Shown here one piece after another: positions 3,392-57,400 of a stretch of 64,000 bases of DNA (positions within the stretch are counted from its first letter, which is position 1; every line of letters begins with the position of its first letter). This DNA is from Anastrepha obliqua (taxonomy: Eukaryota > Arthropoda > Insecta > Diptera > Tephritidae). The stretch is taken from the NCBI RefSeq assembly GCF_027943255.1, contig NC_072893.1, positions 65,504,001 through 65,568,000 on the forward strand, read 5' to 3'. The position numbers and the translations under genes are program-made. The notes beneath the pieces are model-generated. The model made no database searches, had not been told where the DNA came from, and saw only the letters and a list, made by a program, of their open reading frames with translations.

Positions 3392-6300
3392 ATGCTATAT
3401 TCTGAACTCGATTCGAACGTCAACGCGCCTTTACTCGATGATGGCAGTGCCAATGTTCAAACAACTTCAGTTAAATCGGCCGCGCAAGTAACGAACGACA
3501 CTATGCCGCTGCGACGGCAAAAGTATCTAGTCATTCTTATAAGTCTTGGAATATTCGCTAGTTTTGTGGCTATCAACCATTTGATCATTAATGCACCCGC
3601 ATTCAATCAGTATAAAATTTTGCGTGCTTACCAAAATCAAATCGACAATGAAGTGGCGGAAAAAGGGCGCTCTGACCGGCCGCGCACTATACTATTATGG
3701 AACAGTTTCTTTGGAGACGAACGTTGGGGTTTAGGCGAGGACAGCATGGGACCCACCTACTTTCGCGACGAATTCAAATGTCACGAGTACCGTTGTGACT
3801 TGACGAACAATCGCGATTTCTTGCCCACCATCGAAATGTTCGATGCAGTGCTCTTCCATACAGCGCAGCCATTTCCTTTGCTGCAGTCAGTGCCTAGAAG
3901 ACGGTCGCCGCATCAACAATATGTGTTTGCTTTGATGGAACCGCCAGGTGAGACAAAGCATGCGCTCACCGATGAGGCTGGCTTCTACAACATGACTATG
4001 AGCTATCGACTCGATTCGGATATAATGTGGCCTTATCAGTATTTTGAGGATATTGAAACTGGTGAATTAGTAGCGCCGGCAGTTCATGCCAAATGGCGGC
4101 AAGTACCAGCCGAATGGAATGAAACGAGCGTGTCGCAAGTGTGGGAAGGCAAGACGCGGATGGCTGCTTGGTTTGTGTCGCACTGCGAGACATTGTCGAA
4201 GAGAGAAAAGTTGGCAGCAGCATTACAGGAGTATATTGACGTTGACATCTATGGCAAATGCGGAAATTTCAGGTGAGTAAAATGAGTATTGCTTTCAGAC
4301 AAAAACAAGAACTGCATTGGTTGAAATTCAAAGATGATAGAATACAAAATTATGAAGAAACGAGTGGAACTTTGAGCGTAATTTTGCGTTGACGTAATTT
4401 AAGGGAAACTAGAAGAGATCGTGGTGGCCGCCGTAGCGGAAATCTGTCGAAAGCTCGGGCATGAGAGACCAAATCATAGAAACACTATTTTCTTAAATCG
4501 GTCATCCCGTGAAAGGCAATGGGAAATCCTCCGAGTGTATCTCTACCATGGAAAAACTCCTCACAAGAAATATCTGCCTTTCGCAGATACCCCTGCTGGG
4601 GTAGAACTTCGGCTAATAAATTGTCACCCATTAACCCAGCAACCCAGAGTGCAGAGAATAGCATGTGTGGGCATCACTGGTGCCTGTAGAATATATCCCA
4701 TCGCTGCGCTCAACGTTATTCTCCACGTAATTCCTGTGGTTCTGCAGGTTAAATCCATTGCTGTTCAGAGTGCTATTAGGCTGAAGGAGATTGGCCTTTG
4801 GAGACAACTTCCTGTAGGACATAGTAGCATCTTGAAGCAGATCTCCCCTTCCTTCTCTGATATTCGCACCGACCTCTCCATCCGCAAACTGTGTTTTGAG
4901 GGTTGTGCTAGGGCTATCTTTCCGAGCAGGCAAGATTGCAGAGAGGGGACAGTTGGTGCGGATATATATGCCTTTGTTTTCAATGACGGATCCAAAATGG
5001 AGTCTGGAGTGGGAGCGGAGGTCTACTCTAAATCAGCCAGCATTTCGGTCTCCTTTAAACTGCCGGAGACAAGCAGCGTCTTTCAAGCAGACGTCTTCGC
5101 GATCCTGCAGGCTTGCAAAATGCTTCGGGATCGCTGTTGGGAGGGAGACATTAATATTTTTTCCGATAGCAAGCTGCAATCAAGGCACTGTCGTCGCCGT
5201 ATTGCAGCTCTCTTCTCGTGAACTCCTGTAAGGAGGAACTCAAATGTCTCGAACGTGCAGGAAACATTTCCCTCATCTGGGTTCCTGGGCACAGGAACAT
5301 AGAGGGAAATGAAATTGCCGATGAGCTTGCCAGAAAGGGGGCGGCAGAACCGGTTCCAGCTGCCCCCTTCTCAGACATCGGTATTCCCTTGGCCGTCGTT
5401 AAAGCGAAACTACACAATTTCTTTCTAAAAAAAGCGCAAGACAGATGGAGGTCTGTCTCATCGTGTGCTATTTCAAAAGCACTATGGCCTCAATACGATA
5501 GGAACCGCACGCTTAAGGTGATGGGGGGATGCCCATTCAATTTCCAAACTCATTGCGGTGATCACTGGTCACTGGTGAATTCCGTACAACCCCTATTGCA
5601 GAAGCTGTGGGGATCCTGCAGAGAAAGAGACTGTGGAACACTTTCTCTGCAAATGCCCGTCTCTGGCGGCTAGGCGCTTGAAATTCCTTAGTGTGCCCTT
5701 TGGGGATGACTTGATGAAATTTTCCAGCCTAGATCCCTTTTCTCTCCTCCGCTACATCAACAGCACTGGATGACTGTAGACGGTTTTCTCTCCTCTCTAA
5801 ATCCTTTCCCATTCTGTACATCTGTTTAGAAAACTTAACGTACTTCCTCGTTGGCAGTTAGATTTTTAAAAATTTTTAGTTTTTTCAAACGCTTCTAGAC
5901 TGGACTGGGCAAGAGAAAGAGTTGGGAAGAGTTTTTTAAAACCAACAGGATGAACCAGAACATAATAACATGCTACCCGGGTGGATCTCTCACCGTGGAA
6001 TGTGAAGGTGTCTGTGGACCTGGGAAAAGATACTCGGAAGCACCAGGCAATCATAGAAATATATTTCCAATTGAAAAAAGCGTTCGCTTTAGCTTTAAAC
6101 GCAACTATAACAACAGATACCTAGCCACCCTTACTGATTGCCAGGTAGCAATTGAGGCTCTCAAATCCTTCCAGGTTACATGAAAACTGGAGCTGGATTG
6201 TCTTGATAAGCTGTATATTCTATACCTGAATAATCAAGTACGTAACCGAAGGATTCCAGGGCCCATAGGAAATACTGAGAACGAAATGCTAAATAAATTA

Positions 6301-9300: not shown

Positions 9301-11372
9301 GAAGCCTTTCAAAATACAGCTGGTGCAAGAATTGAAGCCGAACGACCTACCGCATGCAGAATTTTTGGTGAATGGGCTCTTGGAAAGTTGGCCGAAGATC
9401 CACTTTTTTATCGAAAAATTGTGTTCAGCGACGAAGCTCATTTTTGGATCAATGGGTACGTAAATAAGCAGAATTGTCGATTTTGGAGTGAAGATCAGCC
9501 AGAAGAATTACAAGAGCTACCAATATATCCAGAAAAGGTCACAGTTTGGTGCGATTTATGGGCTGAAGGTATCATTGGACCGTACTTCTTCAAAGATGCT
9601 GCGAATAGTAACGTAACTGTGAATGGTGAGTGCTACCGTGAAATGATATCCAACTTTTTTTTGCCCAAAATGCAAGAGCTTGACTTGCGTGACATGTGGT
9701 TTCAGCAAGACGGTGCCACATGCCACACAGCACGCGTAACAATGGACTTGTTGAGAGGCGAGTTCGGTGAACATTTTACTTCACGTTCGGGACTTGTCAA
9801 TTGGCCACCCAGATCGTGCGATATAACGCCTTTAGATTACTTTTTGTGGGGCTATGTTAAAGCTCATGCCTATTCAGACAAGCCTGCTTCAACTAACGCA
9901 TTGGAAGACAACATTAAAGCATTTATATGTGAGATACCGGCCGAAGCATTGGAAAGAGGATGCCAAAATTGGACTAAGCGAATGGACCATTTGAAGCGCA
10001 GTCGCGGTCAATATTTGCATAAAATAATCTTCAAACATTAAATTATATGGACTGTACTATCCATTTAAATAAAAATTTCATGCATTTTTCTGAATTTTAC
10101 GTGTGTTTTTTTGAAAAACTTTTCTATAGCTCTTAAAAAATCACCTTTTATTTGCCATACCTTTAAGGGGGGAAGCTGGTGTAGAGCGCAAAAAATGGGC
10201 ATATTTTATGAATTTATTTTGACTCAACAAAGGAATCAATCGAAAATCTGTGAAATAGGTTTAATAATATAGCTTTCATGGTATAAATACAAAATTTTTC
10301 GTCTGAATTAATTTCAAAATGGCCGCTGTCCAGCAGTTCTCCTAAGGCGCCTTTTTTTCTAGTGGGTCCATTGCCGAAGACGTAAACTCCTTAATTTTTG
10401 TCCTGGATCAAAAAATAAAATTTTTTTAGTTTCTATATAACAACAGAAAGAGACGTACGTAGGATTTTTTCGATATTTTGTTTTTTCGCGAAATGGTGCA
10501 CGTTTGAACAAAAAGTTACAATTTTCACTATAAAGAACGACATAAAATTGTTGATTAAAAAAAAAACTATGTAATATAAATAAAAAATCCTACGTACGTC
10601 TCCGGAGAAAGGTATTTCGAATGTATTGTCAAAATTTCGTAAGAATCGGTTAAGATTTGTTCGAGTTATGTCTTCGGCCAGTTTAAAAAAAGTGATTTCG
10701 AGAAAAACGCGTTTAAAGTTGTAAGTAAGTTCGGGGCATACCTGCGAGGCACTGCCGTCGAATGAAAAATTTGGGCATTTAGACATTTTTGCTGGCATCC
10801 CTCATTTGGTTTATTATTTCTAAGACCCTAAAGCACCTTTTAAGACAAAAAAAAATTTTTCGATTTTTTCAAAATTCTAGACCAGCTTCCCCCTTAAGAT
10901 ACCCAATAACTTGTACACATTTTTTAATTGCAGTTGTCCACGCAGCTCAAATGAATGCGATAAACTTTTGGATGTGCGCTATAAATTTTATTTTTCTTTT
11001 GAAAACTCACTTTGCAACGATTACGTGACCGAGAAACTCTACAACATAATGAGACGAAATGTGATTCCAGTTGTGTTTGGCGGTGCCGACTACAGCCGAT
11101 TCGTGCCACCAAATTCCGTCATAAATGCCGAAGATTTCCAGAACGTCGCTGAGCTGGCTTCACATCTTCAATATGTGGCCACCCATCCAGAGGAATATAT
11201 GCGCTATTTTTGGTGGCGTCGCTACTATCGTCTCAGCTATCGTTCGCCTTTTTGTGATCTCTGTGCGAAATTGCACAGTGTAACGAATTCGCAAAAAACA
11301 CAAACATATGTGAATATTGAGAAATGGTGGATGGGCGACCAATGCCGTTTCGAGTCTAAAATTAAATTTTAA
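3392..11372 (+). CDS. Alpha-1,3-fucosyltransferase (GT10), two exons
   Basis: Exons 3392-4272 and 10934-11372 join in phase (AG|T) to give 439 residues. The donor is 'cag|gtgagt' and the acceptor 'ttaattgcag'. The protein has a short cytosolic N-terminus, one membrane segment at about residues 45-66 and a lumenal catalytic region, the usual type II Golgi layout. The second exon begins with SCPRSS and carries the GT10 signature YKFYFSFENS, then CNDYVTEKLYN (residues about 310-331), the donor-binding region for GDP-fucose. The family transfers fucose in alpha-1,3 linkage to N-glycan cores or antennae. The first in-frame ATG (3392) was chosen; a second ATG at 3503 (residue 38) would still precede the membrane segment. 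A C-terminal CDLC pair is present. It belongs to the insect FucTA/FucTC group, but which member is uncertain. The 6661-bp intron is almost wholly transposon. Confidence 0.9.
4400..5845 (+). mobile_element. LINE family A 3' fragment with RNase H domain
   Basis: Broken frames on the + strand encode the end of a LINE ORF2. First comes an RT-distal 'thumb' segment (RIACVGITGACR near 4655), then an RNase H domain: FNDGSKMESGVGAEVYS near 4981, the FQADVFAILQACKML motif near 5085 and WVPGHRNIEGNEIADELARK near 5280. A Cys/His tail (EHFLCKCPSLAARRL, about 5636-5670) ends with a stop near 5773. Frames change near 5190 and 5520, so the copy is dead and 5'-truncated. It lies in the fucosyltransferase intron in the same orientation as the gene. 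A second copy of the family is at 55605-57035. Confidence 0.85.
5940..6800 (+). mobile_element. LINE family C relic (RNase H to tail)
   Basis: A more degraded RNase-H LINE 3' part lies on the + strand. Recognisable pieces are DCQVAIEALKSFQVT near 6136, ENEMLNKLSKKVAASPF near 6281, a QEVEERQRISCWDN-like stretch near 6380 and a Cys/His tail DETTKHLLASCSVLKCKRDK near 6594. Several stops and frame shifts interrupt it. It differs enough from the upstream LINE to be a separate family and directly follows it. Confidence 0.7.
6830..7330 (-). mobile_element. Mariner-type transposase relic, DD41D-like
   Basis: Minus-strand frames between 7240 and 6911 resemble the linker between the N-terminal DNA-binding and catalytic regions of rosa-type transposases: an ENITAVNVAVSEETSTSRR stretch, an SITRRTLQQIL helix and HMLPYKVQMVQ. 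The same order (EENIAAVSASANDD, STTWKMLRKDLG, KPFKIQLVQ) is seen in the nearly complete element at 8854-10148. Catalytic motifs are missing. Confidence 0.6.
7365..7620 (+). mobile_element. LINE 3' tail fragment
   Basis: A short piece resembles the last ORF2 codons and 3' UTR of the LINE at 11925-13375: a 'cgtttaaaa' Cys/His-tail segment, then 'tggtatccctatgatccaaa', 'ctctatgcg' and 'aacctaatctaacct' in the same order as around 13130-13340. No open frame remains. Confidence 0.5.
7621..7955. other. AT-rich intron sequence
   Basis: This stretch lies between a LINE tail and the next transposon inside the fucosyltransferase intron. No domain, repeat pair or RNA gene was seen. Confidence 0.4.
7956..8830 (+). 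mobile_element. DD37D (maT-like) mariner, damaged
   Basis: The + strand encodes a broken transposase. KELKISDLKVKPYKIQK lies near 7979, then LIDRSYENLSHRLATRRQ near 8179, FIEPGVKVNAKYRES near 8288, the second catalytic motif region (TPWMFQQNSSASHKAR near 8383) and NPMDYFLW near 8506, ending ...KAKGGHIEQK at 8711. The QQD aspartate of the family reads as Asn here, so the enzyme would be inactive even apart from the frameshifts. The spacing to the last Asp is close to 37 residues. The right end carries 'ggttacacttcgagtgtcgg' at 8803; a similar end is at about 17262-17290. The N-terminal DNA-binding domain is missing. Confidence 0.75.
8854..10148 (+). mobile_element. Nearly complete DD41D (rosa-type) mariner
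   Basis: Ends are inverted: 'gggtgattttttag' at 8854 and the reverse complement of 'cttaaaaaatcacc' at 10132-10145, about 1.3 kb apart. The transposase starts at ATG 8963 (MNRLTTEQRLQIIEFYYKNA) and ends at 10041. The catalytic core is recognisable: IVFSDEAHFW near 9418, MWFQQDGATCHTA near 9694 and NWPPRSCDITPLDYFLWGYV near 9799. There are 41 residues between the QQD Asp and the TPLD Asp, which gives the DD41D class. Two lesions disable it: an in-frame TAG at 9062-9064 and a one-base frame change near 9355. It sits in the fucosyltransferase intron. Confidence 0.88.
10167..10893. mobile_element. TTAA-flanked MITE, family 1, copy 1
   Basis: A 727-bp non-coding element is flanked by TTAA (10163-10166 and 10894-10897). 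Terminal inverted repeats are 'ggggggaagctggt' plus 'tag' on the left and 'ctagaccagcttccccc' on the right. Internally, the blocks with 'cgtacgtaggatttttt' (near 10451) and 'aaaaaatcctacgtacg' (near 10584) form a large inner inverted repeat. A near-identical copy in reverse orientation lies at 13404-14133. TTAA target duplication is typical of piggyBac-superfamily elements, but no transposase is present. Confidence 0.85.
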
Positions 11373-13403: not shown

Positions 13404-14133
13404 GGGGGGAAGCTGGTCTAGAATTTTGAAAAAATCGAAAAATTTTTTTTTGTCTTAAAAGGTGCTTTAGGGTCTTAGAAATAATATACCAAATGAGGGA
13501 TGCCAGCAAAAATGTCTAAATGCCCAAATTTTTCATTCGACGGCAGTGCCTCGCAGGTATGCCCCGAACGCTACTTACAACTTTAAACGCGTTTTTCTCG
13601 AAATCACTTTTTTTAAACTGGCCGAAGACATAACTCGAACAAATCTTTACCGATTCTTACGAAATTTTGACAATACATTCGAAATACCTTTCTCCGGAGA
13701 CGTACGTAGGATTTTTTATTTATATTACATAGTTTTTTTTTTTAATCAACAATTTTATGTCGTTCTTTATAGTGAAAATTGAAACTTTTTGTTCAAACGT
13801 GCACCATCTCGCGAAAAAACAAAATATCGAAAAAATCCTACGTACGTCTCTTTCTGTTGTTATATAGAAACTAAAAAAAATTTATTTTTTGATCCAGGAC
13901 AAAAATTAAGGAGTTTACGTCTTCGGCAATGGACCCACTAGAAAAAAAGGCGCCTTAGGAGAACTGCTGGACAGCGGCCATTTTGAAATTAATTCAGACG
14001 AAAAATTTTGTATTTGTACCATGAAAGCTATATTATTAAACCTATTTCACAGATTTTCGATTTATTCCTTTGTTGAGCCAAAATAAATTCATAAAATATG
14101 CCCATTTTTTGCGCTCTAGACCAGCTTCCCCCC
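13404..14133. mobile_element. TTAA-flanked MITE, family 1, copy 2 (inverted)
   Basis: This is the reverse complement of the element at 10167-10893, 730 bp long, with TTAA at 13400-13403 and 14134-14137. Differences between the copies are few (for example 'cgctactt' against 'agtaagt' near 13569, and A-run lengths), so they are related by fairly recent movement. It contains the same core motif 'aaactttaaacgcgtttttct' on this strand. Confidence 0.85.
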
Positions 14134-14179
14134 TTAAAGTAAAATAGTGAAAAAAAGTGAATTCACACAAAACATGCGT

Positions 14180-26007: not shown

Positions 26008-29000
26008 ATGGCGAACCCATTCTTAATGGATGATGATTTGGGGAGCGCTGATGCTGACGCAACAGCTAACCCGTTCTTTTCAAAACTCGATGGTGCAGAG
26101 AGCGTAGCGGAGATAACGGATAATCCATTTGGTGGTCAATCGAATCCTTTCGCTTTTGGAGATGAACCTGAAGAGGGTCCTGCACCTGCATCTGATATTG
26201 ATCCAGCAATGAGTTTCTTTGGCACAACTATTGAAGCGGAAGATGATACGCTCAGTATTAAGTCCACCGCTGAAGAAGAAGATGAAACTTCTAAGCGAGG
26301 TCCACCGCCCAGACCAGTGCCACCGCTAACACAGGAACTCATTAATACAGTTTCCAATCAAATGGAGGAGACAAGCTCAGAGTTGCTCGGACGTATACCG
26401 GCCACTCGTTCGCCAAGCCCTGTTTCCATGCGTGATCTACATTCGCCCAGCCCTACACCGGATTCAGGTTTGGCTGATCTTTTAGATGTGTCCGATAGTG
26501 CTTCGTCGAGCAATACGCAAGGATTTGACATGGACTTAACTAGCAGTGGTGGCAATAATAGTGCCGACAACCCATTTGGGGTGCCAACGGCCATTCCTAG
26601 CTTACATGGCGCCACACCAATGCCATCACCGGCCAAACAGCAACCCCCGCGACCCCCACCTCCACGTCCTTTGCCACCGAGACCGGCACCACCAAGTGGT
26701 GTGCCAGCGCAACATAATCAACCGCCTCCAAGACCAACTCCACCAGCACCAGAACCAGTCGCTCAGCCTGCTGAGCCACAAGATTCTGAGGACCTATTTG
26801 ATATGTTTGGCACAACCAAGCCACCCAAACCTCCACCGCCAAAGACAAAGGAAGATATATTAAGTCTATTCGAAAAACCAACACAACCAATGACTAAACC
26901 AGATCTGTTAAGCGATGATCTAGTTTTGGATTCTTCAACTGAAGCACCGGCTGATGAACAAGACAATGCAGGCGAAGATCCTATTTTTAGCTCAATGCTA
27001 ACACGACCTGATGAGAGTACACATGATATTACATGCCAACCGCAGGCGGCAGACCTAAACATATCGATGATAAATAACATTGAAAGAAAGGAATTAGTAA
27101 TCAACAACACTAAACCGCGTGCCCCAACTCCGGATATTGAAATAACTACTGTAGAAGATCTGCCACGATCTGACGATGAAGATGAACCAGAACCAGAACC
27201 AGCACCTGTAAAACCTATAACGCCAGTAGTCATTGAAACGGAGCCAAGTCCCGAAGGCGAAGAGGACGAGAAAGAAGAAATCGAAGCAAATACTGCTGTA
27301 ACTGCAGAACCCGCAGCAAATACATCGGTTGATTCCGATCATAGTCCTCCTACAGAATCTGCGGCAACCACACAAGCCGTGCCAGAATCATCGTTGGACG
27401 CTACTACCGAACAGCAGAATAGTGAGTTTGAACAAATGGATACAGGTTTGGACTTTGCACCCGCCAGTGCAGTGGCAAGTGGGGCAGCTTCTGCAAATCC
27501 TTTCGCTAGCCCTGATGAGGAAGAAGAGACCTATCCACCAACTTCTGTGGTGACGAATATTTTTGCAGTCGACGATATGGACGCTGCAGCAGTGACGAAT
27601 ATTTTTACTACAGCGACGGATACGATCACAACTTCTGCTGTGCCAATGAATATTTTTGCAGTGGATGCTGAACCAGAAACAGTGGCAGTTACGGCACCAT
27701 CATACACAGCTAATAATATCTTCGCCAGTGAACCGGATGAATTTGATGCTTTCTCCGCCAAATTTGATTCCGTTAAGAAGGATAATATAAGTATACTTGA
27801 TGGCTTTGGTGGTGGTTCTGGTGCAGTGACACCATCGGGCGGAGATGGTAAGTGTGATTTACTAGGAGTTCTTCTTTTAGATCAAGTAAAAATAGCAATT
27901 TTTCTTCATTTCAGCTTGGGGTGATAGCGCATTTGGTTCACCTGCTGCAACCACCAACGCCTTTGGCGCAACCGATGGTTTCGAAAATGAGGATGATGAG
28001 TTTTACGCAATGAAAGCACCCGTTCGCGCTGAATCTGTGGAGTCTGTAGACAAGGAATTTAATGTTGTCATCCGACCTAAAGGTGATAGCACACACGCAA
28101 TTGCACCGCAATTGGCACCACCACCGCCACCGGCACGCGCGACCAGCGGTCAACTCTCAAGCGATACATCGCCTGCTGTTAACCCATTTGAGGATACAGG
28201 CTTCCCAGCACCAGCTCAAAGTGGCGAAAATAAGGTCCAACGCACTGATTCCCAGGAAACACCACAAACACCGTTGTTCGATGAAGACGTATCACAGCCC
28301 CTCGAAGATTTTCCACGTTTGAATTATGTCGGACCTGGTTGGGAAATGCAACTACGACAACCGAACAAAAAGAAAATAACCGGCCAGAGGTTCTGGAAGA
28401 AAATCTTTGTGCGCTTGGTGATACAGAACGATGTGCCTGTCGTGCAATTGCTCAATCAGCCATCAGACAAGCAACCATTCCAAGAATTGCCCCTTCAGCC
28501 CTCCTATTCTGTCTCCGAGATCGGCGCACAACAGTACGATCAGTTTGGAAAGATTTTCACCATAAAGCTACAGTACATATTCTATAAAGAACGCCCCGGT
28601 GTGCGACCAGGACAAGTGACTAAAGCAGAACGGATCACTAATAAACTTACAAAATTTGCACAATATGCCATTGCGGGCGATTACGAGGGCGTGAAGGAGT
28701 TTGGAAGTGATTTGAAAAAGTTGGGCTTACCTGTTGAACATGCGCCACAATCATCGCAACTATTTAAGATTGGATCGATGAACTACGAAGACATGAAACA
28801 GTTCTCGGTATGTATCGAAGAGGCACTCTTCCGTTTGCCGGCGTTGCGTGAACGCGCGCTAACCTATAAAATGGAGGAGGTACAGGTGACGGCAGTCGAT
28901 GAAATTGTTGTAGAGCAGGACTATGAGGGCAAAATTTTGAAACAAATAGCGCGTGTGCGTCTGTTCTTTCTAGCTTTTCTCACAGGTAACAAAAAAGGAG

Positions 29001-32000
29001 AAACTAAAAGCAAAAGCTAAGACTAAACCGATGTGATAAACTTTCAGGTATGCCCACTATCGAATTGGGCGTGAATGATATGTGGCGCCAGGGCAAAGAA
29101 GTGGTGGGCAGACACGACATCATACCTGTAGCCACCGAGGAGTGGATACGATTAGAAGCTGTCGAATTTCATAGTGTGGTTAATCAAGACGAGTATGAGA
29201 AGACGCGTACAATTAAGTGAGTAATTTTGAATTTGGTTATTGTTTGTTGCTTCTAATATATATTTCGAAAACTAGGTTCCAGCCACCGGATGCGAATTAT
29301 ATAGAGTTACTACGTTTCCGCGTGCGTCCACCCAAAAATCGCGAACTTCCATTACAGCTCAAAGCCACTTGGTGTGTAACCGGCAATAAGGTCGAGTTGC
29401 GTGCCGATATACTTGTGCCGGGCTTTACTTCACGCAAATTGGGGCAAATACCATGCGAAGATGTCTCTGTGCGATTTCCCATACCGGAATGTTGGATCTA
29501 CTTATTCCGCGTAGAGAAGCACTTTAGGTAAGAGGGAGAGCAGTTACTAGAAATTAAATGTGTACAGGGTAGTTCATGGATTGGTTTCTTTAAAAAAATT
29601 AACAAAAATCAAATTTTCGCGGTATATAATTGGTTTCTTTGTAATAGAAAATCTTCCCATTATTTCTTATTATTTGGCTCGTTCACATTGTTGTTGTTGC
29701 ATCAGCAAAAATATTTCCCATACATGTACGGGAAGTGTTGCTGGAGTGACAGTCCTTGGCCGGGTATATAGTCAATGCGGGTCGTCCGGTCACGTAGAAC
29801 CGATTGTCGGGGTAACGAATTCACGTGGTTGGCTCATTAGTTCACGTGGTTGGCCCATCTGACTTCCCCGTACTCATCGGATATCCTATTAACCCAGTTT
29901 TCCAAAGACTTTGGAGACAGTTTCTGGCTTTATCTCACGATTGGCTTGCTCGATATTCACCGACCTTCGATTCCTGCTCCAAGGCGGCAAATTGACAGTG
30001 CCGAGACGGCTGGTAGACGTTTACTGAACTTTTCGCGCAAAATATCGATTGTACCATGGCTCGCCATGAAGCTGATACTAAGATTTGTTCAAGTCCATTT
30101 CTTTAATTCTCAACCACAAAAAAAAAATGATTTATCATGCATCTGTTGGGCTCACCGTTGACCGAAATAGCGTTTCCTGCAGCATTTTCCAAGAAAAATG
30201 GCCGAGTGATGCTACCGCTGCAAAATTCGCAAATTGATGTTCAATTTATGTAGATTTGCCATTGTTTTAATGGACTTGTGACACGGTGCGTTGTCTTGAA
30301 AGTGAGCGAACGCGGCACCCACTTTGAACAGACTTTTCTCATAGTCAAATGCTCATGCAATATAAAGCCATCACGTTTTTCTGATATCTTCACGATGTCA
30401 ACTCACACAACTTCACTTTTCGATCACTCAAAACAATTTTGTTGCTTTCTGGTGTTACTGCCTCATATGGACGTCCACTGCGTTGTACATCGTCGATGTC
30501 TCTACGACCACTTTTGGAATAAGCAAACCAGCGTTGTTGTTGTTTCTGATGGGGCGGAGTCCCCATAACACATTTCAAGCCATTGCTTCGCTTGAAAGGT
30601 ATTTTTTCTCATAAAGAAGCAGTGTAAAATTAAAACACGAAATTCTTTTTGATCCATTGTTTTGAAAAGAACAAAAGTATCGCCACTCTTAGCACAATAA
30701 CTCACGAACTAATGATTAGACTATCATTAAATTTTATCAGCCGTCTTTTTAAGGTTAATACTAACTGAAAAATAGGTGAATGCAAAAGAACTATGTGTTA
30801 GAACCGGGACTTTTCAACCCCAGTCTGTGTCAGAAAAAAAGGACCCGCGATTATTCATGAAGCATAAAAGATATATGAATATTTAAAATTTTACATGAAA
30901 ATATGTACAAAAGTACGAGTCGCAATTACTCAATAAGCCGTGTAGTCTTCATCGTTGTCGAGTATAACCTGGCATCTTCTTCATGCTTTGAACCAGCTTT
31001 TCTGCGTAGCTCGTCGACAAACAGGACTAGATTTTGCGAACTTGACGTAGAAGTTGCTTTAAATCATGGACCGGCCTTCCGGCAAAATGTGTTTTTATAA
31101 TTCCCCACACATTTTCAATGGGGTGGCGTCTGGGGACTGGGAAGGCCAGTTCAAAACTATGACGCTATTTTCTTGTTTTGTTGTTTCTCAAAGTGTTTTT
31201 CTGAGAGCAGTGGTTTTGATGATGTGGGACGGTTCGATGGTGTTGATATGTACTCACATCTATTCCCTTTTTAGCAAGAATTGTGCGGGCTTGGTGTAGT
31301 CACAAGGAAGGCTCCCGCTTTTAAAGTTGGACGATCACTTTATCCTGCTTTTTTGTCGTCACTCGTTTCAAGCCGCGCTAGGAAAAGTCATTAACATTTT
31401 TGTACACCTTATACCGCTGATTCTACATCGCACCAAACTTTTTTGATTTTTTAATCATTTTTGCAGCCGCGGCGTAAGATAATTTCGTCCCTTTCGAATG
31501 CGTGCATAAAAATAGCGCCTCAAAACGCTTCGTGCACTTCTCACTCCTTTTTGTTTGGTTGCCTCTACGGGAAAGTTTCCAACGAGACCAACCTAAGTTA
31601 GCACCGGCGTCGTAGACCTTGAGTGGGACTATTATGCAGCAAAAAGCAGAACGATATATATGTATATTATATATCTTGAAGTTACAAGAAAAAAACCGTT
31701 TACTTTCTTCTGACACAGGCTGTAGATCAAAAATAGATATTAAAAACTTCAATCCATTCTTCTACAATACTTATATGCAAAGTTTGCTCACATTTTTAGG
31801 TGCAAGTCGTTGATTGACCGCGCGAGCGAACACGTGTTTCTCAATATATAAATATATTGTGTTCCGCTATTGACAAAGTGACTGAGAGTAAATTAAATAA
31901 AAATAAAAAATAAAAATATGAAAGAATCAGGAGAGAACGATGATGAAAGTGACAATATTGTTTCGAAGTGGAAAAATGTACCAACTAAATCTGCAAAACG

Positions 32001-35000
32001 TGTCAATGAAGAGTCTCCTAAGTTACATCAAAATAAAAAGCAGTTTGTTATACATCCGAATCGATTCCACTTACTTAGCGATGATGACGATCAAATGGAA
32101 GCTGGCGACGATGAAAATCTAGCAGCGAACAAAGAAGCTGAGCCAACTACTCCAAAACCACCACCATTAATCATTCCAGGGGTATCGAACATAAGTGAAA
32201 TGATAAATTACATTTCTAGTGTAATTGACAAAAAAGAGTTTAGTTATAAATCACTAACAGATGGAAAAATTAGACTTGTGGTAAATAACATTGAGGCTTA
32301 CAGAAAAACTGTTAAAAATCTAGATATAAGCAAAATAAGTTATCACACTTATCAACCAAAACTAGAACGATCATATAGAGTAGTGTTAAAAGGAATTCAC
32401 TATTCCACTCCCATCGAAGAAATTACCAATTCAATTACACAGCTAGGTCATAAAGTCCGGAATATTTATAATGTTAAAAGCAGAATAAATAAACAGCCGC
32501 TATCAATGTTCTTTGTTGATTTGGAACCGAAAGACAACAACAAAGAAATATACGCAATGAGACATCTGAATAATGCAACAATTAGAGTTGAACCTCCTCG
32601 TCAAACAAGTGATATCGTTCAATAGAGTTCGGCCACACAAAGTCATATTGCAAAAAACCATATAAATGTGTTAAATGTAATTTAATGCACCCAACGGAAC
32701 AATGCACAAAACCCAAAGACTCTCCACCGACATGTGTTCATTGTCTCCAACATCACACTGCAAATTACAAAGGCTGCGCTGTATACCAACAACTTCTTCG
32801 CAAGAAACCGGTTTATTCTAATCGCGCCAAAGAGAATATAATTATCAACCAACAAAATAACACTCATCTGGGTAATGAAGCTAATTATACTGAAAATAAT
32901 TGCAATGAATACAACAACAACAATCTCTCATATGCAAATGTTGTAAAAGGTACAGGCAATAACAATGAAAAGAATAATGAAAACACAATGGAAAAAATTG
33001 AGCAGCTACTTACTAAGCAAATAGAGTTAACAAACACCCTACTCAATATGATGTCTCTGCTCATTAATAAATTATGCAAGTAAACCTGAGATTAGCAATA
33101 TGGAATGCCAATGGCTTAACCTGTCACACTAATGAAACAGAAGTATTTTTAAACGAAAATTTTATTGATATAATGTTAGTTTCAGAAACTCATTTTACAG
33201 CCAAAACATTTTTCAAAATTAAAAACTACGATATAATCACATGTAATCATCCAAGCAATAGGGCATATGCTGGTTGTGCTGTAATTGTAAGATCTAGTAT
33301 AAAGTATGATATGCTAGAACCAATACAAACCGCATCAATACAAGCCGCTGGAATCAAAATAAAAGCAAACAATGCTGACTTACAAATTTATGCATTGTAT
33401 TCACCTCCACGGCATACTATCAAAAACACTGAATACGAAAACATGTTTAACTCATTCGGACCTAGATTTCTAGTGGGAGGCGATTATAACGCGAAGCACC
33501 CTTGGTGGGGCTCACGTACTCCTAACCCAAAAGGAAGAGAGCTTTATAAATGTATTGTTAAAAATAATTTTAAAACGTTGTCGACGGGGGAGCCTACCTA
33601 CTGGCCGAGTGATCCATCGGAAATTCCGGATTTATTAGATTTTGCTGTATACAATGGTATCCCAGCCCAATTACTGGAAGTTGTCAGTTCTGAAGAACTC
33701 AGCTCAGGTCACTCTCCAGTCATTATCAGTTACGACACTCTAACTAGCCTACGGCAACAGAAATACAAAACATTAACTAGTAAGAGTCAAATAAAAATTT
33801 TTCAAGATTGGCTAACCCAAAATTTGGAACTTAATATTTCAATTAAAACAACAATTGAGCTAGATAATGCAGTCGAATATTTCACAAATAAAATCCACGA
33901 AGCGGCCTTTTTTTCTACTCCCCAAAAAGGTAATGAGATCAAATATCGTAGCCGTATACATGTATGTGGAGAGATAAGAGCATTAATTAAGCATAAGAGA
34001 CGCCTTCGAAAGAAATGGCAAACTACTAGGAGTCCAAGAGACAAAACTGCTCTAAATAAAGCAACAACTGACGTTAAAGAAAAACTAAAAGAATTTAGAA
34101 ATAAATCAGTATCAGATTATATACACAGCCTAAACGATAGAAATGTTGATGATCATAAGATTTGGAATGCTACAAAATATCTCAAACATCCCAAAAAGAG
34201 AAATGCGCCTATAAAAGATTGTGGCAACGTTTGGTGTAGGACAGACAAGAGTAAGGCTTGTGCATATGCTAGATATTTAGAGGCAATGTTTTCTCCGTTT
34301 ATAAACCAAAGCAACAACGATGATGATGTGTTAGCATTTCTCGATACCCCATGTCAACTATCTCTACCGATCAAACATATTACACCGAATGAAATTCGCT
34401 TTGAAATTAAAAACCTGTGTAACAACAAATCTCCTGGATATGATAAAATTGACGCCAAAGTAGCCAAGTGTTTGCCGAAAAAAGGAGTTATGTTCTTAAC
34501 TCTGGTATATAACTCAATATTAAGATTAAACTATTTTCCTACACAGTGGAAGTGCGCCGAAATAGTTATGGTCCTTAAACCGGCAAAACCTGAAAATCAA
34601 ATATCCTCTTACAGACCAATCAGCTTATTGACAATATTCTCCAAAATATTCGAAAGACTATTTTTGCGCAGAGTATTCCCAATACTGAAAGAAAATAAGG
34701 TCATACCCGAACATCAATTTGGTTTTCGCCGATACCATGGTACACCTGAACAATGTCACCGTGTTGTTAAACCTCAATGGAGCTCAATAATATAAGTCAA
34801 ATTGTTAATAGTTAGATAATTTGCTTATTATTTTAAAAATAGATTGCAAATAAACGAAAGTTAAAAAAAAAAAAAAAAAAACATTTTTAGGTATGGCTCT
34901 GTCAAGTCTGCCCACAGACGTACCGGCAAAATTAAAGGCATTGAACGCATTTTGGGTGCAGTCGATACGCTGCAAGAGTCACTAATCGAGGTCACCTCAG

Positions 35001-35575
35001 GGCAGGCGAAATATGAACATCATCATCGCGCGATCGTTTGGCGTTGTCCGCGCTTGCCAAAAGAGGGACAAGGTGCGTTAAAGATTTCAAAAGTCATAAA
35101 TAATTTCGACTAAAAAATATATTTTCATCTGATGTCACTATTTTCTAGGCGCTTATACTACACATCAATTGGTTTGTCGCATGGCACTCACCTCCTACGA
35201 TCAAATACCGAGCGAACTGGCACCCTATGCCTTCGTCGAATTCACAATGCCAGCGACACAAGTCTCACATACGACAGTGCGTTCGGTGAGCGTACAGGAC
35301 TCGGATGCCGATGAGCCGCCAGAAAAATATGTGCGCTATTTGGCAAGGCACGAATACAAGTAAGTTGCGATCTTTTTCATTGCTTCTAACATTTCAACTC
35401 CACTATTGCATTATTTTAAACGCTCATGTTAACTTACAGGGTTGGCATTGAGACCACACATGGCGAATCCACAAATGCTTACTTGGCAGCTACGCGTCCG
35501 ATACGTGAGGAGCCAGCACCTAAACCAGTGGCATCTCCAGTGCCACCAAGTGATTCGGATACAGATTCGAATTAA
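26008..35575 (+). CDS. stnB: Stoned B / stonin (StnB), second cistron
   Basis: Exons 26008-27847, 27915-28985, 29048-29216, 29276-29527, 34891-35072, 35149-35359 and 35440-35575 all join in phase to 1286 residues, close to Drosophila StnB. The start ATG has a strong context (caacATGG). Residues 1-740 are acidic and Pro-rich with seven NPF motifs (MANPF, ANPFF, DNPFG, SNPFA, DNPFG, ANPFA, VNPFE), the EH-domain ligands that bind Dap160/Eps15. A stonin homology domain begins near YVGPGWEMQL (about residue 751), and an AP-2 mu-homology domain runs from about 895 to 1225 (MPTIELGVNDMWRQG, FQPPDANYIELLRFRVRPP, KSAHRRTGKIKGIERILG). The protein is the endocytic adaptor for synaptotagmin. Intron 4 (29528-34890) holds several transposons, one of them inserted on the 3' splice site itself. 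Confidence 0.95.
29675..29860. repeat. Dispersed repeat resembling a tephritid SINE/LINE tail
   Basis: The sequence from 'ttgttgttgcatcagcaaaa' through 'tgacagtccttggccgggta' to 'gtagaaccgattgtcggggt' looks like a family I remember as common in fruit-fly genomes. Only this copy is visible here. It ends in a small local duplication, 'cacgtggttggctcat' then 'cacgtggttggcccat' (29822-29858). The class is uncertain. Confidence 0.35.
29990..30760 (-). mobile_element. Irritans-type mariner relic
   Basis: Minus-strand frames give the N-terminus MDQKEFRVLILHCFFMRKNT (from 30657) and DIDDVQRSGRPYEAVTPESN (near 30490), the paired-like DNA-binding part of DD34D mariners. Further along, 'FQDNAPCH'-like and 'FANFAAV'-like catalytic-region traces appear near 30280-30180. 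The middle is deleted and frames are broken. It lies in stnB intron 4, antisense to the gene. Confidence 0.7.
30821..31724 (-). mobile_element. Tc1-like (DD34E) element, deleted
   Basis: The ends 'cagtctgtgtcagaa' (30821) and 'ttctgacacaggctg' (about 31709) are inverted with one mismatch. On the minus strand the N-terminal KRSEKCTKRFEALFLCTH and KLSYAAAAKMIKKSKK segments (31570-31430) are followed by the last catalytic block, WPSQSPDATPLKMCGEL (about 31145-31095), where Tc1 enzymes have WPSQSPDLNPIENVW. The catalytic Glu region is altered and the central part is missing. It is in stnB intron 4. Confidence 0.75.
31790..31801 (+). repeat. Target-site duplication, 5' copy (duplicated splice acceptor)
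   Basis: 'acatttttaggt' occurs here and again at 34881-34892, exactly flanking the jockey-type element. The right copy is the end of stnB intron 4 plus the first two exon bases. This left copy therefore holds a second, still plausible 3' splice site (AG at 31798-31799) with its original upstream pyrimidine-rich context. Confidence 0.9.
31918..33083 (+). pseudogene. Jockey-type gag (ORF1), frameshifted
   Basis: The frame from ATG 31918 runs 235 codons and stops at 32623-32625. A second frame then continues through two zinc knuckles to a stop at 33081-33083. The break falls at the expected first CCHC knuckle, whose leading CX2C pair is absent while the trailing HTKSYC remains, so both bases and codons were lost. 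ORF1 proteins of this clade bind RNA and chaperone the transposition particle. The tail is Asn-rich with a basic/aliphatic end. Confidence 0.8.
33074..34795 (+). pseudogene. Jockey-type ORF2 (endonuclease, truncated RT)
   Basis: This 573-codon frame starts 10 nt before the ORF1 stop. Residues 1-225 form the endonuclease/exonuclease/phosphatase fold with NANG, SETH, GGDYNAKH and SGHSPV motifs, apparently intact. The RT fingers begin near residue 470 (SPGYDKIDAKV, SYRPISLL). The frame ends ...PEQCHRVVKPQWSSII, in which the last residues look like the natural end of ORF2. That implies an internal deletion of the RT palm and thumb rather than a 3' truncation. The protein cannot reverse-transcribe by itself. 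Confidence 0.85.
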
Positions 35576-48215: not shown

Positions 48216-48920
48216 CTAGTTAAAAGCAGGGGCACCTCGTGCAGGAGTGGCATTCTACCACAATGGTCGGTCTTTAGGCTACTGGCACAACTGCCATACG
48301 CCTCTGTGTGCATTCCCCCAAGAAGCAACGTACACTTCACCCCCCCTTTGAAAGTTCTAACCAGTTCTGTTGTATGCAGCACAGTACCGTACCACACCGT
48401 ACTGTTATGTATACATATATATTCCAATAAATATTATATCTATAAAAATGCATCAAAACACGCCCTCATTCCTATTCAGCGTCAGTTATCCCTACATACC
48501 AAGTTAGTAAAAAAAAATATAATTTTAAAACTCACACAACTCTATGAATTTTAATTCTCCATAAAAGTATAATATCACTGTCGCACAGTGTAATTTTTCT
48601 TACAGAAATTTTATAGTGAAATCGAAAATATTTTAAATGTAATTAATTTAAATTTGGACCCCACGCAATGGATAAACGTCGTAAAAGTAGCGTGACGGAT
48701 GGGGGACTTACAAGAGCCTAGTATTTATCAATTTGCTTTAACTTAGTGGAGTGTGGTGGATTTGCTTTTTTTGGTATCAGAATTGACACATTTCCTTAAA
48801 ATCACGCTATGGAAGTTTTGCTGTAATGGCATATAGTAAAGTCAAGGCAAAGGTATGTGGACAAGCTTTACTTCACATATTAATCGGCGTTAATTGTACC
48901 TGATGTAACCAAAAAATCTT
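48216..48920. other. Spacer without recognised features
   Basis: AT-rich toward the right. No coding, RNA or clear mobile element was recognised between the LINE 5' end and the short duplication before the hexanucleotide array. Confidence 0.4.
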
Positions 48921-49014
48921 TTTTCCACAACAGCAAGTCGTTTACCAAACAACTTCCTTTTTTTTTTTTTTCCACAACAGCAAGTCGTTTACCAAACAAC
49001 TTCCTTTTTTTTTG
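48921..49014. repeat. Tandem duplication, about 47-bp unit, two copies
   Basis: The segment with 'ttccacaacagcaagtcgtt' and 'taccaaacaacttccttttt' occurs twice in direct succession (about 48924-48968 and 48971-49012), differing only in T-run length. It sits directly beside the hexanucleotide array. Confidence 0.85.
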
Positions 49015-49045: not shown

Positions 49046-51592
49046 TTCTATCTCTATCTCTATCATCTTATCTCTATCTCTATTTCTCTATCTCTATCTC
49101 TATCTCTATCTCTATCTCTATCTATCTCTATCTCTATCCTATCTATCTCTATCTCTATCTCTATCTCTATCTCTATCTCTATCTCTATCTCTATCTCTAT
49201 CTCTATCTCTATCTCTATCTCTATCTCTATCTCTATCTCTATCTCTATCTCTATCTCTATCTCTATCTCTATCTCTATCTCTATCTCTATCTCTATCTCT
49301 ATCTCTATCTCTATCTCTATCTCTATCTCTATCTCTATCTCTATCTCTATCTCTATCTCTATCTATCTCTATCTCTATCTCTATCTCTATCTCTATCTCT
49401 ATCTCTATCTCTATCTCTATCTCTATCTCTATCTCTATCTCTATCTCTATCTCTATCTCTATCTCTATCTCTATCTCTATCTACTCTATCTCTATCTCTA
49501 TCTCTATCTCTATCTCTATCTCTATCTCTATCTCTATCTATCTCTATCTCTATCTCTATCTCTATCTCTATCTCTATCTCTATCTCTCTATCTCTATCTC
49601 TATCTCTATCTCTATCTCTATCTCTATCTCTATCTTATCTCTATCTCTATCTCTATCTCTATCTCTATCTATCTCTATCTCTATCTCTATCTCTATCTCT
49701 ATCTCTATCTCTATCTCTATCTCTATCTCTATCTCTATCTCTATCTCTATCTCTATCTCTATCTCTATCTCTATCTCTATCTCTATCTCTATCTCTATCT
49801 CTATCTCTATCTCTATCTCTATCTCTATCTCTATCTCTATCTCTATCTCTATCTCTATCTCTATCTCTATCTCTATCTCTATTCTATCTCTATCTCTATC
49901 TCTATCTCTATCTCTATCTCTATCTCTATCTCTATCTCTATCTCTATCTCTATCTCTATCTCTATCTCTATCTCTATCTCTATCTCTATCTCTATCTCTA
50001 TCTCTATCTCTATCTCTATCTCTATCTCTATCTCTATCTCTATCTCTATCTCTATCTCTATCTCTATCTCTATCTCTATCTCTATCTCTATCTCTATCTC
50101 TATCTCTATCTCTATCTCTATCTCTATCTCTATCTCTATCTCTATCTCTATCTTCTATCTCTATCTCTATCTCTATCTCTATCTCTATCTCTATCTCTAT
50201 CTCTATCTCTATCTCTATCTCTATCTCTATCTCTATCTCTATCTCTATCTCTATCTCTATCTCTATCTCTATCTCTATCTCTATCCTATCTCTATCTCTA
50301 TCTCTATCTCTATCTCTATCTCTATCTCTATCTCTATCTCTATCTCTATCTCTATCTCTATCTCTATCTCTATCTCTATCTCTATCTCTATCCATATCTC
50401 TATCTCTATCTCTATCTCTATCTCTATCTCTATCTCTATCTCTATCTCTATCTCTATCTCTATCTCTATCTCTATCTCTATCTCTATCTCTATCTCTATC
50501 TCTATCTCTATCTCTATCTCTATCTCTATCTCTATCTCTATCTCTATCTCTATCTCTATCTCTATCTCTATCTCTATCTCTATCTCTATCTATCTCTATC
50601 TCTATCTCTATCTCTATCTCTATCTCTATCTCTCTATCTCTATCTCTATCTCTATCTCTATCTCTATCTCTATCTCTATCTCTATCTCTAATCTCTATCA
50701 CTATCTCATCTATCTCTATCTCTATCTCTATCTCTATCTCTATCTCTATCTCTATCTCTATCTCTATCTCTATCTCATATCTCTATCTCTATCTCTATCT
50801 CTATCTCTATCTCTATCTCTATCTCTATCTCTATCTCTATCTCTATCTCTATCTCTATCTCTATCTCTATCTCTATCTCTATCTCTATCTCTATCTCTAT
50901 CTCTATCTCTATCTCTATCTCTATCTCTATCTCTATCTCTATCTCTATCTCTATCTCTATCTCTATCTCTATCTCTATCTCTATCTCTATCTCTATCTCT
51001 ATCTCTATCTCTATCTCTATCTCTATCTCTATCTCTATCTCTATCTCTATCTCTATCTCTATCTCTATCTCTATCTCTATCTCTATCTCTATCTCTATCT
51101 CTATCTCTATCTCTATCTCTATCTCTATCTCTATCTCTATCTCTATCTCAATCTCTATCTCTATCTCTATCTCTATCTCTATCTCTATCTCTATCTCTAT
51201 CTCTATCTCTATCTCTATCTCTATCTTCTATCTCTATCTCTATCTCTATCTCTATCTCTATCTCTATCTCTATCTCTATCTCTATCTCTATCTCTCTATC
51301 TCTATCTCTATCTCTATCTCTATCTCTATCTCTATCTCTATCTCTATCTCTATCTCTATCTCTATCTCTATCTCTATCTCTATCTCTATCTCTATCGCTA
51401 TCTCTATCTCTATCTCTATCTCTATCTCTATCTCTATCTCTATCTCTATCTCTATCTCTATCTCTATCTCTATCTCTATCTCTATCTCTATCTCTATCTC
51501 TATCTCTATCTCTATCTCTATCTCTATCTCTATCTCTATCTCTATCTCTATCTCTATCTCTTTCGCTATCTCTATCTCTATCTTTATCCCTA
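49046..51592. repeat. Hexanucleotide (CTCTAT)n array, about 2.5 kb
   Basis: Some 425 units of a 6-bp repeat run almost without interruption. Imperfections are mostly missing or extra bases that shift the phase (near 49062-49085, 49136, 49362, 49482, 49538, 49634, 49881, 50153, 50285, 50590, 50690-50710, 50776, 51225, 51293) and a few substitutions ('ccatat' near 50392, 'cgctat' at 51396 and 51565). The right end decays into 'tttatccctac'. Minus-strand frames read as Asp-Arg or Glu-Ile repeats and are not genes. The array lies between the LINE and the mariner-rich block. Confidence 0.97.
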
Positions 51593-52439
51593 CCTTCGCA
51601 AAACCGTTTTTGCACTTTCACAATTTTCCCAGGGAATGCTTTGAAACAAAAGCTGCAACAATTGAATTTTGAATGTTTTCTCCAGTACAGAATCCGACTC
51701 AACCTAATGAATGTATTTGTACTTATGCACATACATATGTGTATGTATCCACATTTACTGGTAGCATCTTGAGGCGTTGACCAAGCAAGCATTTACTAAA
51801 ATCCACTCCATATGTACGAAACATACTTAGCTTTATGGGATTGTTGGCTTTCACGGACGCAGGGCACAGCCTTTGCTCCTTCACTAACTACTTAAATTGT
51901 TGCTGTTGTTTTTGTTTTAAGCTGGACAAGGCAGCTATGTTTCGAAAGGTTTAAAGCGACCGTCTTGTGGTAGCTTCTTTTCTGGTTGTTTTATTTCTAC
52001 TTGTACTCATACATACATTTGTATTATATATATTTGGCAATTTGCTGTTGCAGATTTATCAAAGCACCCTCAACGTTAAATCTTTTACAGCTAGAAATAT
52101 ATTTATATATGTACGTGTAAGTGTAGAGCTGCATTTTGTACACATGGGCTGCCTCTCTGATTTCGGGTCATGTCTAGAAGTAAATGATAAATAGCTGGAT
52201 AATATTTTAAAATTGTGTCTTAGAGTTTGTTCATTCCATTACACTGCCGACCAGTAGTGAAAAAAAGATCTGTGCACATTTGGTTTAATGAAAAAAAAAA
52301 AATTATTTAGTTTTGATGGAAAAAAACTCATAGTGTGCGTTTATAGTAAAATATAAAGATGAGGGCTTCTTCAATAATCCGGAAGTATTACTAGGTATAT
52401 TTTGAGCTATTTATGAAACAAATAACATACAAATCTGAA
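51593..52439. other. Spacer without recognised genes
   Basis: Unique-looking, AT-rich DNA with one 'catacatatgtgtatgtat' run (51730-51750). No domain or repeat family was recognised. Confidence 0.4.
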
Positions 52440-54469: not shown

Positions 54470-57400
54470 ATGGAGCAATTAAAGTCGAAATTGGCGGTGG
54501 TGACCGGCGCCAGTTCGGGCATTGGCGCCGCCATTGTGCGCGATCTAATTGCTGCCGGCTTAATTGTTATCGGTTTGGCGCGACGTTTCGAGCGCGTCGA
54601 GGCGTTGCGTCAAGAGCTCCCCGCCGCCGAGCAGCGCGCCCGCCTTCACGCCATTAAATGCAACATTGCCGATGCACAGGATGTGGCAGCAACATTTATG
54701 CGCATCATTCGTGACCATGGACCGGTGTATGTGTTGGTCAACAATGCCGGTTGCTTACGTACTGGGCAATTGGCTACCATGCCGGAGGATGATGTGCAAG
54801 AGATGCTGCAAACGAATGTAATGGGCGTGGTCAATTGTACGCGACATGTGTTTGCTGCTATGCGGGCGCATCGCATCGATGGTCATGTGATACTGATAAA
54901 TAGCATTTGCGGACACAAGGTGCCGGTGGTACCGGGCCACATGCCGACCTTGAACATTTACCCAGCCACCAAGTTCGCATTGACTGCGATTAACGAGATT
55001 TATCGTCAAGAGTTCAAAGAGTTGGGCACGCGTGTTAAGGTGACGGTGAGTGGGATTGGGGGTGCGGGGAGGTACTCGGAGAGGCAGGATTTAAATTTCA
55101 ATTTACTCAGATCTTAAATGTGGTGCAGTAAAAGTGAAATTCAAATGGAATCGAGCGAAAAGTGAGATAAAAATAAATTGTGCTACTTTGGTGGGTAGGA
55201 GAGTTAATTTAAATATTCAGCAGGAAATTTTGTATTAAAGTAAAATAGAAATGGATTAAATTAAAAAGTCATTAAACTCAAGGTTAATTGAGATTTGAGA
55301 ATCCTGAGCGAAAAATGCTTACGTTAAAATTAAAAATAAATACCAGATTGCGATATATTAAAAGTCAAAGGTCAACTATTAGCACTATTTTCGTATTTTA
55401 GATTGAAACATTTGTTAGATTTATGAGAACTGCAATAGATGTAACCTTCACTGTAAAAATGAGAAGTAATGGTCCCAAGTTGTGATGATAAAGGTCAAAG
55501 GTCAAATAAGCGCAAACACTATAGGCCAAGATATCCATCACAAACAAGCATCTCAAAAGAATGGCAAACCAACATTTGTTTTTTAATGTAATTATTTCAT
55601 AGATATAGAAGGTGCTTTTAATAATATCAGCGCGGAGTCAATTGTCACTGCGTTAGATAAACTAGAGGTGGAAAGACCTAGCTGGCTCTGGATCTCGTCC
55701 CTGCTTGGCTACAGGGAAGTTAATGCGGTCGCAAGAAGGCAAGAAGTCACTAGATTCGTTCAACGGGGGACGCCGCAGGGTGGTGTCCTCTCGCCCCTAC
55801 TTTGGCTAGTTGTTATTGACGAAGTTCTGCTAATGCTAATAATAAGGGTGGGGTTAAGGTAATAGCATACGCCGATGACTTGGTCGTGATGGTATTGGGA
55901 CCGTTTCCCTCAGTCATGGCTGAGATTTTGGAAAGGTCACTAACTGGATGTACCCAGACGCTGGGCTGCTACTTGCGGCCTTCGAGTCAATTCTGACAAA
56001 ACGGAGCTGGTACTATTTACCAGAAAATATAATCCTCCAACTTTCGACTTCCCAAATTAAAAAACCACGTTCTCTCACTCTCATCGGAAGTTAGGTATCT
56101 TGGAGTGATACTTGACTCCAAACTCCATTAGAAACTACACATTGAATATCGGGTAAGAGAGGCCAGTATAGCCTTCTACTCTTGCAAATCTATGTTCAAT
56201 AAAAAATGGGAACTCAAGCAACAGGTCCTGTGGTGGATGTACAATGCAGTGGTTCTGCCAATTTTAACGTGTGGATGCTTGGTCTATGGCGGAAATCTCT
56301 CAAGGAATATGGTAGCATTTTTGGGCAGTTAACATCGTATTTCTCTGAACTTCGAACAGATCTCTCTATCCGCAAACTAGAGTTCGAGAGTCGTGCTAGG
56401 GCAATCTTTCCAAATAGGCAGGATTAGATCGAGAGGAAAATATGCACCGAAGCTTGCACCTCTGTTTTCACTGGCGGTTCCCGGATGGAATCGGTAGTCG
56501 GAGCAGGGGTTTTCTTTAAATCAACCAATTTATCTATCTCCTTTAAACTACCGAACACTGCTGGTGTTTTTCAAGCAGAAGTTTTGGAGATCCTGCAGAC
56601 ATGCAAAACGCTTAGGGAATGCGGGAGCGAGGGATATATTAACATTTTCTCCCATAGTCAAGCCGCGATTAAGGCTTTGACGACGCCATGGTGTCGAACG
56701 AAACTAGTAAACTCCTGTAGGGAGGAGATCAAATCTCTTGGCTGTGCAGGTAACATTTCTCTGATCTGTGTTCCACGACATAGGAACATTGAGGGAAATG
56801 AAATTGCTGATGAGCGTGCCAGGAAGGGGACTGAATTGGCCTCAGAGACCTCCTACTCGGTCATCGGCATCCCCCTGACAGTTGTTAAAGGGGAACTGCA
56901 CAAATTGTTTCTCAGGAAAGCGCAGAAAAGATGGAGCTCCATTTCTTGATGTTTTCTCTGTAAATGTCCGGGCTTGGCAGCTACACGACTAAGGTCACTG
57001 GGCGCTCCTTTCTTCGACGGCCTGGGGAAGTGCGCCAACGTAAATCCAATTTTCTTCTTTTTTTTGTTAATAGTTGATACTATGCATATACTATAATGAT
57101 GTTTCACAACTTTACGAGTTGCCATAACTTTATTTGTATGATTTAGTATAATAAGAAGTAAAATGTTTTTTTTTTCTTCTTTTTTAATTTAATAATTTTA
57201 AGATTTGTGCAAGGTTAGAGGTTTTGGTATTTAAAGTGAAACATTTTCTATTTTTTATTTTTATAATTTATATATTAAAAAACTCAGACACTTATAAAAA
57301 AATTTCTCAAAAAAATGCAAAACAAAAATTCTGGAAAAAATAAAAAATAAAAATTTTTTTGTTTCAAGGTTCAGTAAAAAAAAAGTTATTCTCACATTTA

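Follow-up and report, generated by a model that had tools for sequence, protein, structure and literature searches.

We analyzed a 64-kb window of the genome of the tephritid fly Anastrepha obliqua (64,000 nucleotides; contig NC_072893.1, positions 65,504,001 to 65,568,000 of the forward strand), in which a Jockey-like non-long terminal repeat (non-LTR) retrotransposon lies exactly on a splice acceptor of the stnB gene. All coordinates below are those of the window. According to a splice model and comparison with relatives, the stnB coding region (26008..35575, + strand) consists of seven coding exons (26008-27847, 27915-28985, 29048-29216, 29276-29527, 34891-35072, 35149-35359, and 35440-35575) and encodes 1286 amino acids (aa). 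All six introns of the model are of the GT-AG type, and the frame is open over the 1286 residues. Identity to the StnB proteins of Zeugodacus cucurbitae, Rhagoletis zephyria, and Bactrocera oleae was 90-91% over the full length (20 proteins compared). Of the 120 relatives of StnB listed out of 498 matches, 115 carried EKHFRYGS, the motif at the junction of exons 4 and 5. The mu-homology domain occupies residues 923-1243; in Drosophila StnB, this domain is described as binding the C2B domain of synaptotagmin-1 (PMC3373503).

The gene appears as a single copy in its own assembly (836 Mb, 204 contigs). The DNA of exons 5-7 matched there once, the other five matches having a length of 33-56 bases, and a second copy of stnB was rejected on these grounds. 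No haplotig with an empty insertion site was seen in the assembly, though a primary assembly need not hold one.

Intron 4 in its present state (29528..34890, + strand) measures 5363 nt, as opposed to 59-80 nt for the remaining five stnB introns. Its original 3' end was found at 31770..31799 on the + strand, with a branch-site match, CTTAT, at -26 and the acceptor AG at 31798-31799. This acceptor lies within the upstream copy (31790..31801) of a 12-bp target site duplication, the downstream copy of which (34881..34892, both on the + strand) holds a second AG, 34889-34890, that restores normal StnB. The duplicated 12-mer, ACATTTTTAGGT, covers the acceptor AG plus the first two bases of exon 5; the window has just these two copies of it on the + strand and none on the - strand, and they are identical at 12 out of 12 positions. 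Between them lies the element (31802..34880, + strand, sense to stnB), which is about 3.1 kb long and 5' complete by comparison with its closest full-length copy in the genome, L009. The element ends in a poly(A) tail (34863..34881, + strand), a run of 19 A's that stands where the polypyrimidine tract of the downstream acceptor would be. Because the downstream duplication begins with the last A of the run, the tail counts 18 or 19 A's. Three bases, GCA, follow the upstream duplication and are absent from L009. In a repeat search of the window, the ends of the element were not linked by any repeats of at least 40 nt, whether direct or inverted. An older repeat occupies 30821..31744 (end approximate) of the same intron; as a query, 29500-31801 matched many genome copies at 77-86% identity (40 of 6228 candidates scored), and by eye the repeat resembles Tc1/mariner elements.

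A first-pass annotation of the window had placed a Jockey-type insertion on the stnB acceptor, with an identical 12-bp duplication and an A tail in place of the downstream tract, and we could confirm this anatomy to the base. The duplication, the A tail, and the complete 5' end together are no chance match, because L009 is built in the same way and is flanked by a 12-bp duplication of another sequence, TTTAGTTATTTA. We consider an assembly or sequence artefact extremely improbable: duplication, tail, 5' end, and substitutions private to this copy are all there, the window contains no N, and a duplication of the same length flanks another copy of the same family. Chance and artefact were thus both rejected, on the exact duplication, the A tail, and the anatomy of L009. 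The insertion appears to be an ordinary target-primed event of a low-copy family, as judged from its anatomy. By a rough calculation that assumes 100,000 introns, 12-bp duplications, and an 836-Mb genome, about 0.14% of random insertions are expected on an acceptor; a genome that has received many insertions should therefore contain single cases.

Jockey clade elements are marked by a first open reading frame (ORF1) with a PRE_C2HC domain and a second (ORF2) lacking RNase H. In the stnB copy, the first part of ORF1 (31918..32625, + strand) encodes a PRE_C2HC domain (PF07530, E 1.7e-15), which was found in L009 as well, and its frame is broken at a 13-bp deletion. ORF2 (33074..34795, + strand) encodes an endonuclease domain (PF14529, PF03372); of the reverse transcriptase, just the beginning is left (positions 5-57 of 205 in the RVT_1 profile, a match under Pfam's own cut-off). 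The full reverse transcriptase was found in a 96% identical protein, P0001, in which no RNase H family was detected at E 0.001. Together with the A tail and the 12-bp duplication, this domain content suggests a Jockey-like element; unlike elements of that clade, the stnB copy is without most of the reverse transcriptase.

The relative L009 (contig C4) is full length, about 4179 bp, with open frames of 396 and 897 codons. It is 98.7% identical to the stnB copy across 2982 alignment columns and 100% identical in the 3' part across 110. Relative to L009, the stnB copy is without 13 bp in ORF1 and 1087 bp in ORF2 and beyond (junction at 34770..34771, + strand). Both reading frames being incomplete, the stnB copy is not an autonomous element. 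With bases 1-499 of the element as the query, the genome yielded at least four matches, which began at base 1 (the stnB copy), base 4 (L009), and bases 165 and 331 (two distant copies); further distant copies such as L007 were not among them. The large deletion was specific to the stnB copy among the fetched copies: none of the eight loci with both of its sides (L003, L007, L008, L009, L010, L013, L014, and L015) shared it, the stretch between the sides being about 838-1108 bp. The loci L002 and L004, which overlap L009 and L010, were excluded from this comparison. For the fetched copies, a nonautonomous subfamily with the deletion as a family trait was rejected. Other length variants were seen in this part of the element. 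In L013, a 97% copy, about 838 bp rather than 1087 bp separated the sides of the deletion, and a related copy at C2:39030750-39032128, with its matched parts about 560 bp apart, seems to be internally deleted in the same part.

The anatomy of the insertion and the product of each splice choice can be read directly from the DNA. Splicing to the downstream copy (29527|34891) gives the open, normal StnB of 1286 aa. Splicing to the upstream copy (29527|31800) gives 1111 normal residues plus 16 new ones before a TAA stop at 31849-31851, at a cost of 175 normal residues, 132 of the 321 residues of the mu-homology domain among them. Both products are as the first-pass annotation had described them, and its account was incomplete in treating them as the only outcomes, since other signals may also compete. 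A cryptic acceptor AG at 34842 (+ strand) in the tail of the element, with branch-site matches TTAAT at -34 and CTTAT at -15, would yield 1117 aa, and an in-frame AG at 34917 (+ strand) within exon 5 would yield 1277 aa, 9 residues fewer than normal; no StnB with this 9-residue deletion was found among the database proteins listed. Skipping of exon 5 shifts the frame and leaves 1165 aa, and retention of intron 4 leaves 1111 aa. An AATAAA near the 3' end of the element (34849..34854, + strand) is placed between the two acceptors and could terminate the transcript within intron 4.

We compared the two acceptors with those of this gene alone, seven in all, a yardstick that ranks them and cannot predict splice ratios. 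The downstream acceptor was the weakest of the seven: the 18 nt before its AG were 33% pyrimidine, with a purine run of 11, as opposed to 67% and a run of 3 for the upstream copy, and 50-78% with runs of 2-5 for the five other introns. Since its pyrimidine content is the lowest and its purine run the longest, leaky splicing is plausible. The upstream copy has a strict match to the branch consensus, yTnAy, at -26; the downstream copy has one at -63. The loss of the downstream tract claimed earlier holds, but TTAAA at -26 is a possible branch site of the downstream copy once the last base of the consensus is relaxed, and TTTTTAG is kept there as well. Weak tracts do occur in stnB, as intron 3, only 59 nt long, has 0.50 pyrimidine and ends in CGAAAACTAG.

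To estimate how long the insertion has been tolerated, we counted substitutions private to the stnB copy at sites covered by at least two of the copies L003 and L009 through L017, the distant L007 and L008 being excluded. Seven of 1959 comparable sites carried such a substitution (0.36%, 95% range 0.14-0.74%); a few tail stretches in this comparison were just 87-89% identical. An earlier count of nine own changes in 1499 sites, made with the two closest copies, was superseded, as older copies show some of those changes to be ancestral. Six of the seven fall in ORF2, and all six are nonsynonymous. The chance of this outcome is 0.19 without constraint and 0.003 at an omega of 0.2, and the pattern thus fits unconstrained sequence better than a history within an active lineage. 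The private changes fit decay after insertion. The stnB copy and L009 differ at 23 positions, including 8 A>G, 3 T>C, and 2 G>A changes, mostly unpolarized; a reading of these as RNA editing was considered.

Fly mutation rates are 2.8-5.5e-9 per generation, which would place the insertion 0.26-2.6 million generations ago if all private changes post-date it. The first-pass annotation had called the insertion recent on account of its identical duplications. That argument does not carry, because at a divergence of 7/1959 the expectation for 24 bp is only 0.09 changes, and identity of the duplications says little about age; the apparent decay since insertion speaks against a recent event as well. 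The decay also makes it less likely that the allele is brand-new or strongly harmful. A null allele appears unlikely at such an age, stnB being a single-copy gene in the assembly, and would hardly persist for that long because embryonic lethals are described among stoned mutants (PMC3373503, PMC3393740). The further suggestion of the first-pass annotation, that the insertion may be polymorphic or heterozygous, found no support in the assembly, in which no empty-site haplotig was seen.

These features point, at about even confidence, to splice competition in a mildly hypomorphic stnB allele. A Jockey-like element, internally deleted before the event or since, would have inserted by target-primed reverse transcription at the boundary of intron 4 and exon 5, and the 12-bp duplication would have copied the acceptor because the staggered cut spanned it. 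Exon definition of exon 5, which is 182 nt long, would help the exon-adjacent copy to yield enough normal mRNA for a viable fly. The upstream copy, with its native branch site and pyrimidine tract, would act as a decoy for a minority of transcripts, which would end in a terminal exon inside the element, with the stop at 31849-31851 and the AATAAA at 34849. The allele would then be a mild hypomorph rather than a null. Exon definition would favor the downstream copy, which is followed after 182 nt by a donor with a U1 pairing energy of -6.3 kcal/mol; donors within 800 nt past the decoy acceptor reach -5.4 kcal/mol at best.

Several points weigh against this proposal. The native signals favor the decoy, which could dominate. 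The nearest AG before the downstream acceptor lies at 34860, 30 nt upstream, and the cryptic AG at 34842, with its branch matches, also precedes that acceptor. A protein with the decoy tail was found neither among the 120 proteins listed of 498 matches nor among the 120 listed of 178, although these are clusters at 90% identity, in which absence is weak evidence. Finally, an unseen source copy may have carried the private substitutions already.

The same evidence bears on two other outcomes. The insertion could be neutral, with the downstream copy used essentially always and the element serving as extra intron. The assembly shows the inserted state alone for a single-copy gene, the pattern of decay suggests long tolerance, and the exon 5 donor pairs with U1 at the value given above; still, we regard neutrality as unlikely, given that the upstream acceptor survives intact, branch site and tract included, that the downstream acceptor is the weakest of the seven, and that an AATAAA stands between the two. 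Loss of function, in which the decoy, the cryptic AG at 34842, or skipping of exon 5 would dominate in a heterozygous fly or as a recessive lethal allele, strikes us as rather improbable. The native acceptor signals remain upstream, exon 5 skipping would shift the frame, and LINE-1 insertions located 4 bp before MET exon 14 are listed among cases of exon 14 skipping, with RNA described for other sites (PMC12934576). The age suggested by the private substitutions speaks against it, as does the lack of an empty-site haplotig, for what a primary assembly can tell.

The junction between the upstream copy and the element raises one further way to a normal mRNA. Because the duplicated target is AG|GT, this junction, AG|GTGCAAGT, joins an acceptor directly to a donor; splicing to the upstream acceptor could regenerate a donor that would then be spliced to the downstream copy in a second step. 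The junction pairs with U1 at -5.2 kcal/mol, near the -5.6 of intron 6, the weakest of the six stnB donors. A donor 88 nt on is weaker still (-3.6) and would delimit a small recursive exon in the layout described for Drosophila ratchet points (PMC8605326). As at those ratchet points, an acceptor adjoins a donor inside a long intron; unlike them, the donor here is weak and was created by the insertion junction. However, the window contains 180 AGGT sites, of which 69% pair with U1 at least as well, and the element has donors of similar strength further in (-5.4 at 32181, and -5.3 at 32277 and 32280). Weakened ratchet donors are reported to cause exon inclusion in flies (PMC8605326), and the second step would still depend on the weak downstream acceptor. 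We hold recursive splicing of intron 4 to be very unlikely.

That retroelements can land on an acceptor and copy it is already known. In canine merle, a SINEC_Cf lies in the original acceptor at the boundary of PMEL intron 10 and exon 11, with a 15-bp target duplication, and the length of its tail sets the use of the original and the alternative acceptor, with partial function (PMC7349775, PMC6091007). As in merle, the retroelement in stnB sits in the acceptor, and the duplication includes the acceptor AG and so leaves two copies. The merle SINE, however, is antisense, its tail serving as the pyrimidine tract of a new acceptor, and the frame is kept, whereas stnB has a sense LINE with a purine tail, its upstream acceptor copy is the putative decoy, and use of the decoy would truncate the protein. 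LINE-1 insertions in or beside human MET exon 14 include three located 4 bp before the exon and overlapping its acceptor; exon skipping was established by RNA in some cases, at sites other than those three (PMC12934576). Like the stnB insertion, these lie over or next to an acceptor, and target duplications are given for some. They differ in coming from tumours and in that several are 5' truncated or inverted; skipping of MET exon 14 is in frame (PMC12934576), whereas that of stnB exon 5 is out of frame. Target duplications of introners can likewise supply splice sites, with the element spliced out, but introners create new introns and carry or recruit the sites as a family trait (PMC9860276), whereas in stnB a single insertion lengthened an old intron. 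What is specific to stnB is the sense LINE, the A tail that replaces the tract of the productive acceptor, and the acceptor copy in native context as the decoy. No title listed in literature searches, which covered few subscription journals, described an insertion of this kind in stnB or in any tephritid.

The allele offers a natural test of acceptor choice in a synaptic gene, in which identical 12-bp acceptors are set in native signals on one side and behind an A tail on the other. The length of the tail may vary as in merle dogs, in which case an allelic series could exist. Splice competition of the kind proposed would show target duplications buffering insertions at splice sites. If splicing were recursive instead, intron 4 would be removed in two steps and the damage of the insertion undone; were this general, a retrotransposon would come with the means of its rescue whenever its duplication spanned an AG|GT acceptor, and such insertions could survive in essential genes.

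Several other features of the window were recorded. A TCTATC hexanucleotide array of about 426 copies with a 96% match occupies 49047-51592, and the GC skew is near -0.8 in 50001-52000. Just before the array, at 48919-49012, lies a perfect tandem direct repeat with a 47-bp unit. A large inverted repeat (10161-10893 and 13405-14139), with arms 98-99% complementary and about 2.5 kb between their inner ends, looks like a young fold-back or terminal inverted repeat element; an open frame, 10881-11372, begins at the inner end of its left arm. Two repeats on the same strand, 5170-5340 and 56659-56829, are 77% identical and 51 kb apart, and their frames read like retroelement fragments.

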